A stretch of DNA of 64,000 nt from positions 1 to 64,000 of the forward strand of contig JAIPFF010000012.1 of the NCBI GenBank assembly GCA_021736785.1, written 5' to 3'. Each line of letters starts with the position of its first letter. Position 1 is the first letter of the stretch. A program made the translations under genes and the position numbers. This stretch comes from Thiohalocapsa sp. (lineage in GTDB: Bacteria > Pseudomonadota > Gammaproteobacteria > Chromatiales > Chromatiaceae). Positions 28,559 through 58,561 of this stretch are shown piece after piece. Under the pieces are notes generated by a model. It saw only the letters and a program-made list of their open reading frames with translations, had not been told where the DNA came from and did no database searches.

Positions 28559-28622
28559 CGGCGGCGCGCGCTCGCCCGGCGATTGTGAACGGGGCATCGC
28601 GCCGGCGCCGGTGCGATCGCCC

Positions 28623-29993
28623 GTGACGGCCACGATCGAGCGCGACACCATCGCCGCCTTGGCGACCCCGCCCGGCGTCGGCGGTGTCGGTATCCTACGT
28701 CTTTCCGGGCCGGACGTGCCGCGCATCGCCGAGGCTTTGCTCGGCCGGCTCCCGGAACCGAGGCTGGCCATGTTCGCAACATTCCGCGACCATGATGGCG
28801 ACATCCTCGATCAAGGGCTCGCCTTGTACTTCCACGGCCCGCGTTCATTTACCGGCGAAGATGTTCTCGAGCTCCATGGTCACGGCGGCCCCGTTGTTCT
28901 CGACCTCCTTTTGCAGCGCGTGCTGGCCCTCGGCGCTCGTTTGGCGCGCCCCGGCGAGTTCAGCGAGCGCGCCTTTTTGGAGGGTAAGCTTGATCTCACC
29001 CAAGCCGAGGCCATTGCCGATCTCATCGAGAGCGGAACGCACGCCCAAGCGCGCCTTGCGAGCAGAACTCTGCGCGGCGACTTCAGCCGACGCATCGACC
29101 TGTTGCAGGAAGCCCTGACCCGACTGCGTGCCTTCATCGAAGCCGCCCTCGACTTTCCGGACGAAGACATCGACTTCATCGCCGATTCGGCGGTTCAAAA
29201 CGACCTGACTCGTTTGATCGAGGACAGCCGCGCGCTGCTTGCGGCCGCGCAACGTGGGGAGCGCGTTCGCGACGGTCTCCTGCTCGTGATTGCCGGCGCC
29301 CCGAATGCGGGAAAGTCCAGCCTATTGAACGCGCTCTCGGGCGAGAACACCGCCATCGTTACCGACATCCCCGGGACTACGCGCGACGTGCTGCGGGCCG
29401 ATATCCAGATCGACGGCTTGCCCCTGCGCGTCGTCGATACCGCCGGTCTGAGGATCGCTGCCGATCCCATAGAGCGCGAAGGCATTCGACGAGCCCGAGA
29501 GCAGCTCGAGCACGCCGATCATGTTCTGTGGATCGTCGACGATGCGGCTCCCGGCGAAGGCGCGTCGCTCGATCCCGGGCAACTCCCGGATGGCGTACCG
29601 ATCACCTTGATTCGCAACAAGATCGACCTGACCGGTTTGTCCGCCGGAATCGACACCGGAATCGACACCGGAATCGGCGCATCCGTCGAGATCCGCTGCT
29701 CGGTGCGCGACGGCCGCGGCCTCGACCTGCTCCGCGCGCATTTGAAGGCCGTCGCGGGCTATTCCGGAACCGCCGGCGGCGAGTTCAGCGCTCGGCGCCG
29801 CCACCTCGATGCCCTGCGGCGTATGCTCGCCGGCCTCGAGCACGCACAGGGTCTGCTCATGGACGGCACGACCCCCGAGATCGCGGCAGAAGAGCTCAGA
29901 TTGGCTCAGCGCGCCCTCGGCGAAATCACCGGCGACTTCACGTCCGATGATCTACTGGGCCGGATCTTCTCCGACTTTTGTATCGGTAAGTAA
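28623..29993 (+). CDS. mnmE: tRNA modification GTPase MnmE
   Basis: The 456-residue protein has the N-terminal folate-binding domain (DTIAALATPPGVGGVGILRL), a helical domain and an inserted G domain (G1 GAPNAGKSS, G3 DTAG, G4 NKID). It has the diagnostic C-terminal FCIGK. With MnmG it forms the 5-carboxymethylaminomethyl group on wobble uridine; mnmG lies 6 kb away at 36011. Two GTG codons (28611, 28623) are possible starts; the second is closer to the family start. The G domain contains a small tandem repeat (29644-29677) adding residues DTGIDTGI. Confidence 0.95.
   Translation: MTATIERDTIAALATPPGVGGVGILRLSGPDVPRIAEALLGRLPEPRLAMFATFRDHDGDILDQGLALYFHGPRSFTGEDVLELHGHGGPVVLDLLLQRVLALGARLARPGEFSERAFLEGKLDLTQAEAIADLIESGTHAQARLASRTLRGDFSRRIDLLQEALTRLRAFIEAALDFPDEDIDFIADSAVQNDLTRLIEDSRALLAAAQRGERVRDGLLLVIAGAPNAGKSSLLNALSGENTAIVTDIPGTTRDVLRADIQIDGLPLRVVDTAGLRIAADPIEREGIRRAREQLEHADHVLWIVDDAAPGEGASLDPGQLPDGVPITLIRNKIDLTGLSAGIDTGIDTGIGASVEIRCSVRDGRGLDLLRAHLKAVAGYSGTAGGEFSARRRHLDALRRMLAGLEHAQGLLMDGTTPEIAAEELRLAQRALGEITGDFTSDDLLGRIFSDFCIGK
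29644..29677 (+). repeat. 12-bp tandem repeat inside mnmE
   Basis: CCGGAATCGACA occurs twice in tandem followed by a partial third copy (CCGGAATCGG). It encodes GIDTGIDTGIG just after the G4 motif, in a surface loop, and keeps the frame. Confidence 0.85.
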
Positions 29994-30310: not shown

Positions 30311-30640
30311 ATGACTTTCGTAGCAAATATCCAACATAGGCTGTTGCTGTCGCTAGCGCTGGCAGGTCTGTTGTTGTTACCGCCCGCCGCCGCCGCCAAC
30401 GCGGATCGGAGCAACTCGAACAACGGCAATGCTTACGCCTACGGGCGCGACGACAACAAGTCCAATAACGGCAATGCCTACGCCTACGGGCGCAAGGACA
30501 AGACGGATCAGGGCGGACTGCTGAAGCGGGGAGCACCCGCGCCCGCTCCCGGTCTGGCTTTCCTGGCCGTCTCGGTTGCGGCCGGCGCGTTGCTGCGACG
30601 CCGCGCCCGCAAAGAGAGCCAGCGCCGAGTCAGTCGCTGA
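30311..30640 (+). CDS. Small secreted protein with PEP-CTERM-like sorting tail
   Basis: The 109-residue protein has a signal peptide (about 1-31, cleavage after ANA). A short Asn/Gly/Tyr-rich mature part contains two copies of NNGNAYAYGR (residues 37-46 and 52-61). The C-terminus is three-part: PAPG (78-81), about 14 hydrophobic residues (82-95) and a basic cluster RRRARK (96-101). The three-part layout is that of exosortase substrates, with PAPG in the place of PEP. GGAG precedes the ATG by about 7 bp. The next gene is an exosortase-like protein, so this is probably its dedicated substrate, anchored to or released from the cell surface. The function of the mature peptide is unknown. Confidence 0.8.
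   Translation: MTFVANIQHRLLLSLALAGLLLLPPAAAANADRSNSNNGNAYAYGRDDNKSNNGNAYAYGRKDKTDQGGLLKRGAPAPAPGLAFLAVSVAAGALLRRRARKESQRRVSR
30422..30493 (+). repeat. Two 27-bp direct repeats in the sorted-protein gene
   Basis: Positions 30422-30448 and 30467-30493 are identical except for one silent base and each encode NGNAYAYGR. Near identity at DNA level suggests a recent duplication. Confidence 0.85.
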
Positions 30641-30890
30641 GGCTGACTTCGGTCACCGGCTCGGCACTATCGGCCCGCACCCGTCCGCGGTGACGCAGGC
30701 CATCGGCCGGCCACCGTTATCCCGCACGATCGCGGGATCCAGCGCGCTGCTATCCTGGCCGATCGCACCCGCGCGGGCGCTCCGCTATGGCCAATCATCG
30801 TAGCCCCGGAGCCCGCGCGTTCTCGTCCGACCAACATTGCGTGCACCGAGTCAGCCTTTACTCGACCCGCCCCCGAAACTGGAGACGCCC

Positions 30891-31823
30891 GTGCAAACGG
30901 ATATGCTCAAGCACTATGACCTGACGATACCCGTCCTGCTATTCGCTATCGGTTTGGCCGCGGTTTCGCTCTACGGGGACGCCGGCGATTTCGCGCTCAC
31001 GGTGCTTGCGCTGCTCGCGCTCTACTCCCTCTTGGCGGATGCGTCGTCGCCGGCGTCCGCCGCCGCCCGGCCGACCTTCGGCGCGAACGCCCGGAGTATT
31101 GCCGCCGCCACCCTCGGCACCATCGCAGCCCTGTTTGTGCTTGCGGAGCCGCCCGTTTTTGCCCGCGCGCTGCCGGTGCTGTTGCTGCTCGGCTACTGGC
31201 TCTCTACGGAAGGCGCGCATGCACCCCGTCGCCGCTGGAGGGAACTGCTGATCGTGGGGCTGCTGGCCATCCCGGATCGATTACTGATGTCCGCGCTCAC
31301 CTCGCCCCTTCTTCACCTGTTCGGTTGGGACTCGATGATCGGCCCGTCGGCGGAGCTCGCGACGGCATTCGTCGCTTACTCCGGTCTGCCGGCGACCTTG
31401 AACGGTGCGGACATCACCACTGCCCGGGCCATCGTCACGATTTTGCCCGCCTGCGATGCGTCCAGAAACATCGATTTCCTGCTGAAGATCGCATTGATGC
31501 TGATACTGACGCTCCCGGTACGGCCCTTACGCTGGCTCCCGACCGTCCTGGTCGCAATGCTCTGCGCCTTTGTCGTCAACGCCGTCCGGCTAGCCCTGCT
31601 GGTACACCTTGCACACGCCGGAGACCTAACCGGTTTCGATTACTGGCACGATGGCGACGGCTCCAAGCTCTTCAACTTGGCCGCAATCGTGATATTCGCG
31701 TTGTTCGCCTATTTTCAGATCGATACCGCATCCCCCGAGGCCGAGCCGACACGGTCCGCCGACGCCCATCCCCGCGGATCCCCCGGCGGCGATACCGGTG
31801 ATGCCGCGAGCGGACGCGGCTAG
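30891..31823 (+). CDS. Exosortase/archaeosortase-family protein
   Basis: The 310-residue protein is mostly hydrophobic, with about eight membrane segments. It carries the three residues expected of exosortases in the right order: C188 in LPACDASRN, R233 in NAVRLALL and H253 in YWHDGDGSKLFN. Exosortases are membrane transpeptidases that recognise C-terminal sorting signals. The start is GTG at 30891, with GGAG at 30881-30884; upstream frame to 30837 is not needed. A Pro/Gly-rich hydrophilic tail of about 30 residues ends the protein. No EPS operon surrounds it; the only apparent partner is the 109-residue protein upstream. Family membership is inferred from motifs and topology. Confidence 0.8.
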   Translation: MQTDMLKHYDLTIPVLLFAIGLAAVSLYGDAGDFALTVLALLALYSLLADASSPASAAARPTFGANARSIAAATLGTIAALFVLAEPPVFARALPVLLLLGYWLSTEGAHAPRRRWRELLIVGLLAIPDRLLMSALTSPLLHLFGWDSMIGPSAELATAFVAYSGLPATLNGADITTARAIVTILPACDASRNIDFLLKIALMLILTLPVRPLRWLPTVLVAMLCAFVVNAVRLALLVHLAHAGDLTGFDYWHDGDGSKLFNLAAIVIFALFAYFQIDTASPEAEPTRSADAHPRGSPGGDTGDAASGRG

Positions 31824-31903: not shown

Positions 31904-33898
31904 TCAGCGCCGTCGCGGCCTGAACTGATCCACCAAACGCTGTAGCCGAATTTGCTCCCCGCCGTCCTGTTCGCCGGCATAGCGAAGCCGCAGATAAAGT
32001 CGGACGATCGCCTCCACATGCGGTGCCAAATCCGGGCGCTGCGCGACAATCCGGTTGCTGTAGTCGAGCGGGCCTTCGGCGGCGCGCCGGCCGAGCCCGA
32101 GCGCCGAGAGCCTGCGGGAGAACAGTTCGTAGGCGCGCTGTACCGGGTCCGCGGTGCGCGCCGGACGTGCGAGAAAGAGATTCCACGACAGCATCACTAC
32201 GCTGCCGCCGATCGCCAAGAGCAAGATCAACCCGTACTGTCTCAGATGCGCAAGTCCGAGGTAGTCGAGCATCCGTTGCTGCTTGCGATCGGAAAACTCG
32301 ATCACCCAGTTCTTCCATCCGGCCTCCAACGCGTCTATCCCCATCCGCAGCCCGCGCAGCGCGCGCCCCAGCCCGCTGTCGGCACCGACGCGAAAGCGCA
32401 CGGGACGACTCGCGCCGAACGACGACAGGCGCGAGTCCGCATCCACGCGCTCCGCGGCCACCGCGGCGGTCGGATCGATGCGGACCCAGCCCCGCTCTTG
32501 TATCCAGACCTCGGTCCACGCGTGGGCATCGGACTGGCGAACCACATAGTCCCGGCTCAGCGGGTTGTATTCCCCGCCGAGATAGCCCAAGACGATACGC
32601 GAAGGAACGCCGGCGATGCGCATCAGCAACGCGAAGGTACTGGCGTAGTGCTCGCAAAAGCCGCTACGGGTTTCGAACAGGAACGAGTCGGCCATATTCT
32701 CGCCGAGCTTCGGCGGCAACAGCGTGTAGCGGAAGGGCTCGCGATTGAAGTGGCGCAGTGCCCGCTCGACCACCTCCTGCGCCGGTGGGTCGTCGACCGT
32801 CCAGCGCCCGACCAGCTCGCGCATCCTCGGTGTGACGTTGTCCGGCAGCGCCAGCGCGGCCGTCTCTTCGTCGAGACTGAGCCCTGTCGTCCGGTAGCTC
32901 GGCGCCGAGGTCATGCGATAGACACGAAAGTCGTCCACCGGCTTCTGAGACAACACTTGGAAATCGGGGGTCAGCACCGCGTCGTCGGGATAGTCTGTCG
33001 GGAGGTCGAGGGCAATCAGCCAGTGTTGATCCGTGGGCTCCATTGCGACGAGGTAGCCGAGATCGGGCCCGGTCGGCTCGATTTGCGGAGCCGCATCCGG
33101 AAAGGCATAGCGCGACGCGGGAAGCCAGCGCTTGCCGTCGGTGTGCCACAGCACCGGACCGCGCCAGTACATCGCCTCGGTCGGTATTCCCGGCTCTCGG
33201 TCGAAACGCACCCGCAGGGCATCCTCGCCGGAGACGACCAGTTCTTCGATGGAACCGGGCTCGAGCCAGTTCTTCAATCCGCTGACGGCCTGTTCCGACT
33301 CCAGCCCCAAGTCCCATAGCGGTGCGTCGAGCCGCGGGAAAAAGAAGAACAACAACAACGCCAGCGGCGCTGCCATCAGCACCGTGCGGCCGGCCAGCGT
33401 AGCGGCGACCGACACGCGTTCGCGAAGCGTGCGACGCCCGGCGCCGATTGTCATATCGAGCAGCAGGGCCAGATCGACGACCAGCAATGCCGTCAAATAC
33501 GCAGCCAGCAACGCCGACTCGTTGAACAGAAACTGCACCACGAGCAGGAAGCCGAACAACAACAGCAGCACGCGGAGATCCCGCGGCGCGCGTGCCTCCA
33601 GGAGTTTGAGCGCCAGCATGGTCACCAACAGTGCCGTACCCGGGCTCTGGCCAACGACGCTGTGGTAGGAATCCAGCACGTTCGCGCCGCCGGCAATCGT
33701 CAGCAGCGCCAGCACGAATGTACCGGGGCGAAGCCGCGGCCAGCGGATCGCGGCCAGGTGCAAACAGAACAGTCCGGCGATAAACAATCCGACTTGGCCG
33801 TGAAGCGCCGAAATCAACGGCGCCAGCCCGAGACCGTAGAGGATTGTCACCCCCAACAGCTGAAACCGCTCGCTCATTTCCCGCGGCCGTCTATCCAT
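31904..33898 (-). CDS. TgpA/DUF3488-type transglutaminase-like membrane protein
   Basis: The 664-residue protein has about five or six N-terminal membrane segments (about 1-190). A large periplasmic transglutaminase-like domain follows, with the Cys/His/Asp triad in SGFCEHYAS, SDAHAWTEVW and IDPTAA. A further membrane segment (about 535-555) and a cytoplasmic C-terminal region complete it. It resembles TgpA of Pseudomonas aeruginosa. It is the last gene of a MoxR-DUF58-TgpA operon. The ATG at 33898 overlaps the stop of the DUF58 gene; alternatives at 33922 and 33877 exist. Substrate unknown. Confidence 0.9.
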   Translation of the reverse strand: MDRRPREMSERFQLLGVTILYGLGLAPLISALHGQVGLFIAGLFCLHLAAIRWPRLRPGTFVLALLTIAGGANVLDSYHSVVGQSPGTALLVTMLALKLLEARAPRDLRVLLLLFGFLLVVQFLFNESALLAAYLTALLVVDLALLLDMTIGAGRRTLRERVSVAATLAGRTVLMAAPLALLLFFFFPRLDAPLWDLGLESEQAVSGLKNWLEPGSIEELVVSGEDALRVRFDREPGIPTEAMYWRGPVLWHTDGKRWLPASRYAFPDAAPQIEPTGPDLGYLVAMEPTDQHWLIALDLPTDYPDDAVLTPDFQVLSQKPVDDFRVYRMTSAPSYRTTGLSLDEETAALALPDNVTPRMRELVGRWTVDDPPAQEVVERALRHFNREPFRYTLLPPKLGENMADSFLFETRSGFCEHYASTFALLMRIAGVPSRIVLGYLGGEYNPLSRDYVVRQSDAHAWTEVWIQERGWVRIDPTAAVAAERVDADSRLSSFGASRPVRFRVGADSGLGRALRGLRMGIDALEAGWKNWVIEFSDRKQQRMLDYLGLAHLRQYGLILLLAIGGSVVMLSWNLFLARPARTADPVQRAYELFSRRLSALGLGRRAAEGPLDYSNRIVAQRPDLAPHVEAIVRLYLRLRYAGEQDGGEQIRLQRLVDQFRPRRR

Positions 33899-34928
33899 CG
33901 ATCCGGTACCTCGCCATCGCACTCAGGCAGCGGTGCTTGTGGCCGTCGCCGCGGCCGTGCTCGATCTCGACGCCGGGCAGGCGCAAGCCGAAGGTGAGGT
34001 TCTGCTCTTCGGCGTCGAGCACCTGCCTCGCCATGATGCCGAGCCGCGACTCGTCACTGCCCGAGGTATGGTCCCAGTCGATCCACACGCGTGCCGCCTG
34101 ATCGCCGCCGAATTGCTTGACCACCAAGCCGCGCTCGCGCGCCAGCGCTTTCCAATCCAGCTGCCGCGGCGAATCGCCTTCGCGATAGGGTCGTAAACCG
34201 ACGAAATCATCCGCACCCGTTCCCATGTCGCCGGAACCGTGATGCACGAACGCGGGCAGCGCGGGCGGCACCGGCGCTCGCGCTGCCGGCTTGGGATAGA
34301 CGTCCACCGCGGCGCGCAGCGGCACCCGGGTCCATGCGCGGAAGAGCCCGAACGGATAGCGCGTCGCCAGCGTCACCGCGCCGAGCGCCAGCCGACCGCG
34401 TCGTTCGGCGACGCGGCCCACGTCGACGTCCAGATGACCCTTGGCCGCAAGCACCGGTGCGGCGGGCGGTGGCGTCGGCGTATCCTCGATACAGAGACCG
34501 TAACGGGCCTGGCCCTTGTCGTCGGTAATGACCAGCGGGAAGCGTGCCGTCTGACCCGGAAACACCGGTACGCCGTCGCGGGCCTCCAAGCGCAGGCCCA
34601 GCAGCGCGAACCAGCACTGGTGCATACTGACCAGGCTTGCCGAGATCATCAGAAAACTGAGAAACAGGGCCAGGTTGTTCTGGTAGTTGAGCGCCCCGAT
34701 CAACGTCGCGAGCAACACCAGTGCATAGCCAACGCCGCTGCGGGTCGGCAAGATGTAGATTCGCCGTGCCGACGTCGCGGCACTCGCCTCCGCCGGCGGC
34801 CCGCCGGCGGAGGCGAGCCGGTCGATCAGCCGCCGCACGCGTCCACGGCGTCGGTGTGCCGGCGCTCCGGTCGTCGCCCGGGCCCCTGCGGCGGGCCTAT
34901 CGACGCCGCCGCCGCCAGTCCGGCTCAT
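33891..34928 (-). CDS. DUF58 domain-containing protein
   Basis: The 345-residue protein has two hydrophobic segments (about 62-100) and a C-terminal DUF58/vWA-like domain with the signature FVGLRPYREGDSPRQLDWKALAR. DUF58 proteins are regular partners of MoxR ATPases and TgpA-type transglutaminases; the whole set is thought to assemble or fold envelope complexes. It overlaps both neighbours by a few bases, showing tight translational coupling. The first 50 residues are basic and low-complexity. Confidence 0.88.
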   Translation of the reverse strand: MSRTGGGGVDRPAAGARATTGAPAHRRRGRVRRLIDRLASAGGPPAEASAATSARRIYILPTRSGVGYALVLLATLIGALNYQNNLALFLSFLMISASLVSMHQCWFALLGLRLEARDGVPVFPGQTARFPLVITDDKGQARYGLCIEDTPTPPPAAPVLAAKGHLDVDVGRVAERRGRLALGAVTLATRYPFGLFRAWTRVPLRAAVDVYPKPAARAPVPPALPAFVHHGSGDMGTGADDFVGLRPYREGDSPRQLDWKALARERGLVVKQFGGDQAARVWIDWDHTSGSDESRLGIMARQVLDAEEQNLTFGLRLPGVEIEHGRGDGHKHRCLSAMARYRIDG

Positions 34929-57268: not shown

Positions 57269-58561
57269 ATGCGTACCGAGGACATCGACGGTTTTTTCGC
57301 GAGCGCGTCGTCGCTCGATGCGGACGACTATCTGCTGCTCGACTACTCCTTCGAATGCTCGGGCGATCCCCGTACCGCGGCCGCGCACCTGTGCAGCGAG
57401 CAGTCCACGGCACAATGGGCGCGGGTCGATGTCGACGAGGACTACCGCCCGCGCTTCGCCGCCAAGGTGCTCGATCTGGAGGTCGAGACCGTGCTCTCGG
57501 AGACCAGCTATGTGCTGAGCCCGCGGGTCTCGGGACCGGTCAGCGTCTGCCGCGTGCGTATCGCCCATCCGCATGCCAACTTCGGCCCGCGGATTCCCAA
57601 CCTGTTGAGCGCGGTGCTCGGCGAAGGGGCTTATTTCGCGCCGGATGTCCCGATCATCAAGCTGCTCGATATCCAGTTTCCGGCGTCCTTTCTCGACGCC
57701 TTCGACGGCCCGCAGTTCGGCATCGAGGGGCTGCGCGCGCGCTTCGGGATTCACGACCGGCCTTTCTTTCTCGGCGTCATCAAGCCCAACATCGGGCTCG
57801 CGCCGGAACCCTTCGCCGAGATCGGCTACCAAGGCTGGCTCGGCGGACTCGATATCGCCAAGGACGACGAGATGCTGGCCGATCCGCACTGGTCACCGCT
57901 GGCCGAGCGCTCGGCCTTACTCGGCGCAGCGCGCTTGAAGGCGGAGCGCGAGAGCGGCGAATCGAAAATCTATCTGGCCAATATCACCGACGAGGTGGAC
58001 CGCTTGATCCCGCTGCACGATTTGGCAGTGGGTAACGGCGCGAACGCAGTCATGGTCAACGCGCTGCCGGTGGGACTGAGCGCCGTGCGCATGCTGCGCC
58101 GCCACGCGAAGGTGCCGTTATTCGCCCACTTTCCGCTCATCGCGGCCTTCAGCCGGTTGCCGCTCTACGGTGTGCATACGCGCGTAATGACCAAACTGCA
58201 GCGGCTCGCCGGCTATGACGCCATAATCATGCCGGGCTTCGGCCCGAGGATGATGACCTCGGAGGACGAAGTCTCGGAAAACATCGCCGCCTGCATCGAG
58301 CCCATGGGTGCAATCAAGCCGGCGCTGCCGGTGCCCGGGGGCAGCGATTCCGCCGCGACGTTGGAGCGGGTTCACCGAAAAGTGGGCAGCGCGGACTTCG
58401 GCTTCGTGCCGGGGCGCGGGGTATTCGGTCATCCAATGGGGCCGCGGGCCGGTGCCGCCAGCATCCGACAGGCTTGGGATGCGATCGCTGCCGGCATTCC
58501 CGTCGCCGACTACGCCTCGGGGCATCCCGAGCTCTCCGCCGCGCTCGCACGCTTCGGCTAG
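57269..58561 (+). CDS. RuBisCO-like protein, type IV (IV-Photo)
   Basis: The 430-residue protein matches the Chlorobium/Allochromatium type RLP. It begins [12 protein letters not shown], with [16 protein letters not shown] and [14 protein letters not shown]. The catalytic lysine is kept in GVIKPNIG (K172), as is the carbamylation site in [10 protein letters not shown] (K198, D200, E201). The loop-6 lysine of true RuBisCO is replaced ([12 protein letters not shown]), so it should not fix CO2. In green sulfur bacteria loss of this protein disturbs sulfur oxidation. It lies after the YjbQ-family gene. No small-subunit gene is nearby. Confidence 0.92.

Follow-up and report, generated by a model that had tools for sequence, protein, structure and literature searches.

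Exosortases often serve many unrelated proteins within one genome, and for this reason the chemistry and the destination of their products are hard to follow. For the EpsH-type systems, PMC1569441 gives a median of eight substrates, against apparently one for the gene pair described here, and places the catalytic cysteine of the enzyme within Cys-x-Gly. Dedicated enzyme–target pairs are a recognised pattern as well (PMC3237569). The pair in question lies in a stretch of 64,000 nucleotides from Thiohalocapsa sp. (the window) and consists of a gene for a small, predicted secreted protein followed by a gene for an exosortase-family protein. It is most likely a dedicated exosortase–substrate pair, in a minimal form related to cyanoexosortase A. 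Literature searches returned nothing on it among the matches listed.

The gene pair and its small protein

Both genes are on the same strand (Table 1). They are preceded by mnmE (28611-29993) and followed by a tgpA-like gene of convergent orientation (31904-33922); the names of both neighbours were assigned from sequence. The longest open reading frame of the exosortase gene begins with TTG at 30837 and encodes 328 aa; the most plausible start is the GTG at 30891, which is preceded by GGAG just 5' of it and yields 310 aa. With this start, the second gene begins 250 bp after the first, as originally predicted. A consensus scan of the gap revealed no terminator-like and no sigma-70-like site. 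Two sigma-54-like GG-N10-GC cores, at 30698 and 30734, are confined to this gap in front of the exosortase gene and were rejected as likely chance occurrences. The comparison of ten window ORFs with Pfam yielded no polysaccharide gene (0/10), and it is for these ten ORFs that the absence of an exopolysaccharide operon noted earlier has support. Elsewhere in the window (57269-58561), a 430-aa ORF has RuBisCO large-chain domains; ORFs for a Radical SAM protein and an alpha/beta hydrolase are located nearby.

Table 1. Features of the putative exosortase–substrate pair (positions in the window).
Feature	Position	Strand	Basis
Putative dedicated substrate gene, 109 aa	30311..30640	+	ORF; tail and signal test
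Repeat 1, codes NNGNAYAYGR	30419..30448	+	28/30 bases identical to repeat 2, identical protein
Repeat 2, codes NNGNAYAYGR	30464..30493	+	28/30 bases identical to repeat 1
Sorting tail, codons 76-101 (PAPAPG, hydrophobic stretch, RRRARK)	30536..30613	+	Translation
Substrate–exosortase gap	30641..30890	+	Consensus scan; fold z-score -1.71
Exosortase-family gene, 310 aa, 8 predicted transmembrane segments	30891..31823	+	PF09721, TIGR04178, alignment, hydropathy script

The translation of the first ORF bears out the secreted protein with a three-part tail that had been proposed. A hydrophobic N-terminus is followed, counted by eye, by PAPG at residues 78-81, a hydrophobic stretch of 14 residues (82-95) and RRRARK (96-101), and crude hydropathy rules, rather than SignalP, recover the N-terminal signal, the motif, the transmembrane stretch and the C-terminal basic cluster. 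The tail reads APAPAPG-LAFLAVSVAAGALL-RRRARK, and since the motif is really a run of A-P-A-P-A-P-G, PAPG is only one possible name for it. The signal peptide spans approximately residues 1-30 (by eye), which leaves a cargo of ~46 residues between signal and tail, close to the predicted 45, with both repeats inside it. The DNA of the repeats is nearly identical, as had been noticed, and because they encode the same protein sequence, their two base differences are silent.

The small protein was not listed against the PEP-CTERM models PF07589 and TIGR02595 at E values up to 10. In 56 related genomes, 25 (own genome included) gave a match at E up to 1, and the best match outside the own genome (E 0.003) has stops inside. 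No clear homologue was found in the 55 other genomes, and the pattern that would have spoken against a pair, namely small-protein homologues occurring regularly without the membrane protein, was not encountered.

The exosortase-family protein and its relatives

The assignment of the membrane protein to the exosortase family, as put forward in the original prediction, is supported by PF09721 (75.4 bits, cut-off 25.7) and TIGR04178 (37 bits, cut-off 23). The best named subtype is cyanoexosortase A (TIGR03763), at 93.2 bits against a cut-off of 150; the other listed named subtypes score lower, each under its own cut-off, and the protein consequently reaches no curated subtype. Numbered from the GTG start, C188, R233 and H253 are exactly where they had been placed, in the catalytic order of exosortases, and are invariant in an alignment of five sequences. 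The N-x-x-R and H-x-x-x-G motifs are kept as NAVR (230-233) and HDGDG (253-257). A simple hydropathy script, which is not a trained topology predictor, gives eight membrane segments and puts the cysteine and the histidine in odd loops on the periplasmic side, so the cytoplasmic C188 that would have argued against the prediction was not found. Together with a charge count, the script assigns 12 lysine and arginine residues to the inside and 3 to the outside; the charge rule is clear for this protein and for that of locus L004, and ambiguous for the two sister exosortases described below (8 vs 8 and 8 vs 9). The structure model, built from six sequences, was poor (mean pLDDT 51) and provides no test of the active site, and a sequence search found no solved structure for the protein.

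In place of the usual Cys-x-Gly, the window exosortase has Cys-Asp-Ala, which reads as a deviation within a protein that passes the family profile cut-offs. Among 87 collected exosortases, a motif script assigned CxG to 77 and CxA to 2, and could not resolve 8. This rarity might indicate that the enzyme is a degenerate leftover and that the pair is decaying after the loss of a larger exosortase kept by most congeners: seven of nine congeners have an exosortase scoring above 250 bits, and the window's genome has none so high. Such decay is nevertheless very unlikely, because both frames are open, with GC3 values of 0.75 and 0.78 where the flanking genes have 0.77 and 0.80, the repeats differ at silent positions only, and the protein groups apart from the long exosortases in a tree.

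This tree comprises 87 rows, 8 duplicate rows having been dropped beforehand; long proteins were trimmed to their first 320 residues, and only a midpoint root was applied. The window exosortase forms one clade (support 100/99) with proteins from two genomes, G395 and G300, which are two species of one genus from another order of the same class. This pair clade belongs to a set of 12 (100/99), in which the remaining rows are five from cyanobacteria and four short ones contributed by three genomes of the window's class; the 75 rows outside the set, mostly long exosortases, are separate from it. The exact place of the window protein is uncertain owing to its long branch (2 changes per column) and its flagged composition.

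The pair clade is rare and was found in three genomes. The window exosortase, used as a single-protein query against 93 genomes, matched three including its own, none closely. A profile of the pair clade detected only the own genome among 398 sampled from the phylum (E 1e-10), 14 of 210 genomes in the window's order (E 1e-6; own genome 477 bits, next 58.6) and two of three genomes in the order of G395. Plasmids gave no match, and no relative was confirmed on viral contigs. TIGR03763 matched 113 of 369 genomes of a class sample, most of the matches listed being in open frames of at least ~500 aa. The score of the window protein was exceeded in G296, G395 and G300 only, and above 90 bits only these and the window itself were seen. 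The G296 exosortase lies outside the pair clade in the tree. At its locus (L083 8332-11341, in the window's class), genes for TIGR03790 and HpsJ_like_A, which are known as partners in cyanobacterial systems, come after a cyanoexosortase-A-like gene.

In congeners, mnmG, moxR, DUF58 and tgpA genes were matched in all seven tgpA regions obtained from the nine genomes, and neither gene of the pair, nor mnmE, was matched in these seven regions. One of them (L087) ends soon after tgpA and therefore carries little weight. In one congener (G009, L089 8808-9797), the gene directly after tgpA encodes a secreted protein whose tail is of the PVPA type, with no NCBIfam model above cut-off; it shares this neighbour with the window exosortase, which faces tgpA.

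Recurrence of the layout and the number of substrates

The exosortases of G395 and G300 are the closest found (35-37% identity to the window protein). In these genomes the exosortase gene follows, after gaps of 138 and 141 bp, a gene for a secreted protein of 104 residues with a true PEP tail, which ends in NPEPITGMLALAAAGVGGAAMRKRKK and seven further residues. These sister pairs are flanked by rpoD-like and GTPase-like genes (named by eye). The sister substrate has a signal of ~27 residues (by eye) and a cargo of ~46 residues up to the PEP motif, and it falls just under the cut-offs of both PEP-CTERM models (16.8 vs 20.7 bits, and 14.8 or 14.6 vs 16 bits). Between the two species, there are 30 synonymous and 3 nonsynonymous changes in its gene (pS 0.43, pN 0.012), a pattern that shows selection on the substrate, with 103 of 104 residues the same; in the exosortase, 257 of 294 residues are kept. 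The small protein therefore behaves as a real gene product in that lineage and is more conserved than the enzyme. In G300, a strong terminator-like hairpin (L085 9258-9287) lies between the two genes, and the stretch is nearly the same in G395 (L084), which suggests that substrate and exosortase are on separate transcripts there. The sister cargo (L084 4190-4504) also contains a basic, tryptophan-rich sequence, KKRWWHRIRKG, kept in both species but for one residue.

The pairing of the small gene with the neighbouring exosortase gene is thus reinforced by a layout that recurs in a distant genus. It is very unlikely that the small protein has nothing to do with the enzyme, being a tail-anchored membrane protein or a peptide precursor encoded beside it by chance. 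The window and sister cargoes share no sequence, only the tail aligning (E 0.10), and the 250-bp gap with no transcription signal in the scans would suit such a coincidence, but order, strand and size class are the same in both lineages, and a signal combined with such a tail is nearly unique in the part of the genome scanned. The suggestion that the motif variant and the small repeat cargo may mark a new subtype is less well supported. A P-A-P motif alone defines no subtype, since the sister pair has an ordinary PEP and a P-A-P tail (VPAPLP) occurs near another exosortase (L251), and the NNGNAYAYGR repeats are absent from the sister cargo. The sister pair does agree with the window pair in its minimal layout of two genes, in the small size of its cargo and in the clade of its exosortase.

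The window exosortase is the sole one found in its own genome (75.7 bits), which is estimated to be 99.95% complete. The PEP-CTERM profile gave three matches there, none above cut-off, and did not match the window's own tail either. With this tail as the query, the search retrieved the tail itself and four weak matches, none of which forms a comparable C-terminal tail. A direct tail scan covered the window and 100 further stretches of the same genome (1,939,002 of 5,205,988 bases, 37%), with genes cut by an edge falling outside the count. Among 13,157 ORFs of at least 50 aa, 99 have a hydrophobic-plus-basic tail and four of these a PxP motif; two of the four passed a crude signal test, namely the window ORF, from residue 1, and a 436-aa ORF in L184, whose only signal-like stretch begins at residue 102. 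No second protein with an N-terminal signal and such a tail was therefore present in the 37% scanned, and the one-substrate system that had been envisaged is probable.

The neighbour could still be merely one of several substrates of an ordinary exosortase, the others being encoded elsewhere in the genome and undetected. A profile that is blind to the window's own tail could miss other variant tails, and the direct scan reached 37% of the genome. This explanation is unlikely in view of the tail query and the tail scan, neither of which produced a second candidate, and of the rhombosortase case, in which adjacent single targets mark dedicated systems (PMC3237569). The profile search, the tail search and the ORF scan together make it likely that the window exosortase is dedicated to one substrate, and there is good reason for confidence that the pair is a dedicated, minimal exosortase system.

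Proposed maturation route and comparison with known systems

In a dedicated system of this kind, the 109-residue precursor would be translocated through Sec and lose its signal peptide, and the C-terminal hydrophobic stretch would hold it in the inner membrane with RRRARK in the cytoplasm. The eight-helix exosortase would then attack near PAPAPG at the periplasmic face through C188, helped by R233 and H253. The repeat peptide of ~46 residues would be set free, or transferred to a different carrier, a lipid or a glycan, that is destined for the cell surface. By analogy with known exosortase and archaeosortase systems, we infer cleavage at the PAP motif, transfer and a surface destination; as to its role, the cargo would most likely be a small surface-coat or matrix peptide. 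A more specialised function is possible but doubtful: the pair clade may be a distinct, exopolysaccharide-independent group of exosortases with a single small secreted peptide as its only product, in which the enzyme would act in peptide maturation or lipopeptide formation rather than as a general surface sorter. A peptide with a specific activity would fit the near-perfect conservation of the sister peptide and its basic, tryptophan-containing RWWHRIRKG.

With its two genes and one target of ~46 mature residues, such a system would make the product, the cleavage site and the attached group simple to study. The present data suggest that a clade of exosortases can be maintained in the form of a bare pair, the cargo of which can be strongly conserved. 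This conservation of the sister cargo contrasts with the description of PEP-CTERM proteins as fast-evolving in PMC1569441.

Among known systems, cyanoexosortase A operons are the most similar by score, TIGR03763 being the best-scoring subtype (93 bits). Five cyanobacterial loci encode exosortases of similar length (285-324 aa), and a PEP-CTERM gene lies upstream in three of them, all Brasilonema. Unlike these, the window protein stays below the 150-bit cut-off, and whereas L004 has a TIGR04153 partner, neither such a partner nor an HpsJ-like one is apparent, from ORF lists inspected by eye, beside the window pair or the sister pairs. Short exosortase loci in G911 (L251) and G007 (L255) are comparable in that an exosortase, of 285 or 299 aa, is encoded close to a tail-bearing protein, but they are part of larger clusters (by eye), have targets of 166 and 189 aa and lie on other tree branches. 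At the G911 locus (L251 4156-7978), in the window's own family, the short exosortase is located between two ORFs with P-A-P-L-P tails, and HpsJ-like and partner-like ORFs were noted by eye.

The window protein, at 310 aa, is also much shorter than most long relatives of the EpsH type, whose frames measure ~510-590 aa and whose extra part is presumably an EpsI-like domain. It further differs from them in its separate clade, its Cys-x-Ala and the variant tail of its substrate. In common with EpsH-type exosortases and their PEP-CTERM proteins, as described in PMC1569441, it has the family model, the order of the triad, Asn-x-x-Arg and His-x-x-x-Gly. Rhombosortase/GlyGly-CTERM pairs likewise have a single target encoded beside the sorting enzyme, but there the enzyme is an unrelated rhomboid serine protease and the motif is unrelated too (PMC3237569). 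Since dedicated pairs are recognised in that source and a P-A-P tail occurs near the L251 exosortase, neither adjacency nor motif is a novelty. To the extent covered by these searches, the new features are a clade outside all curated subtypes, its bare two-gene layout and its recurrently tiny cargo.
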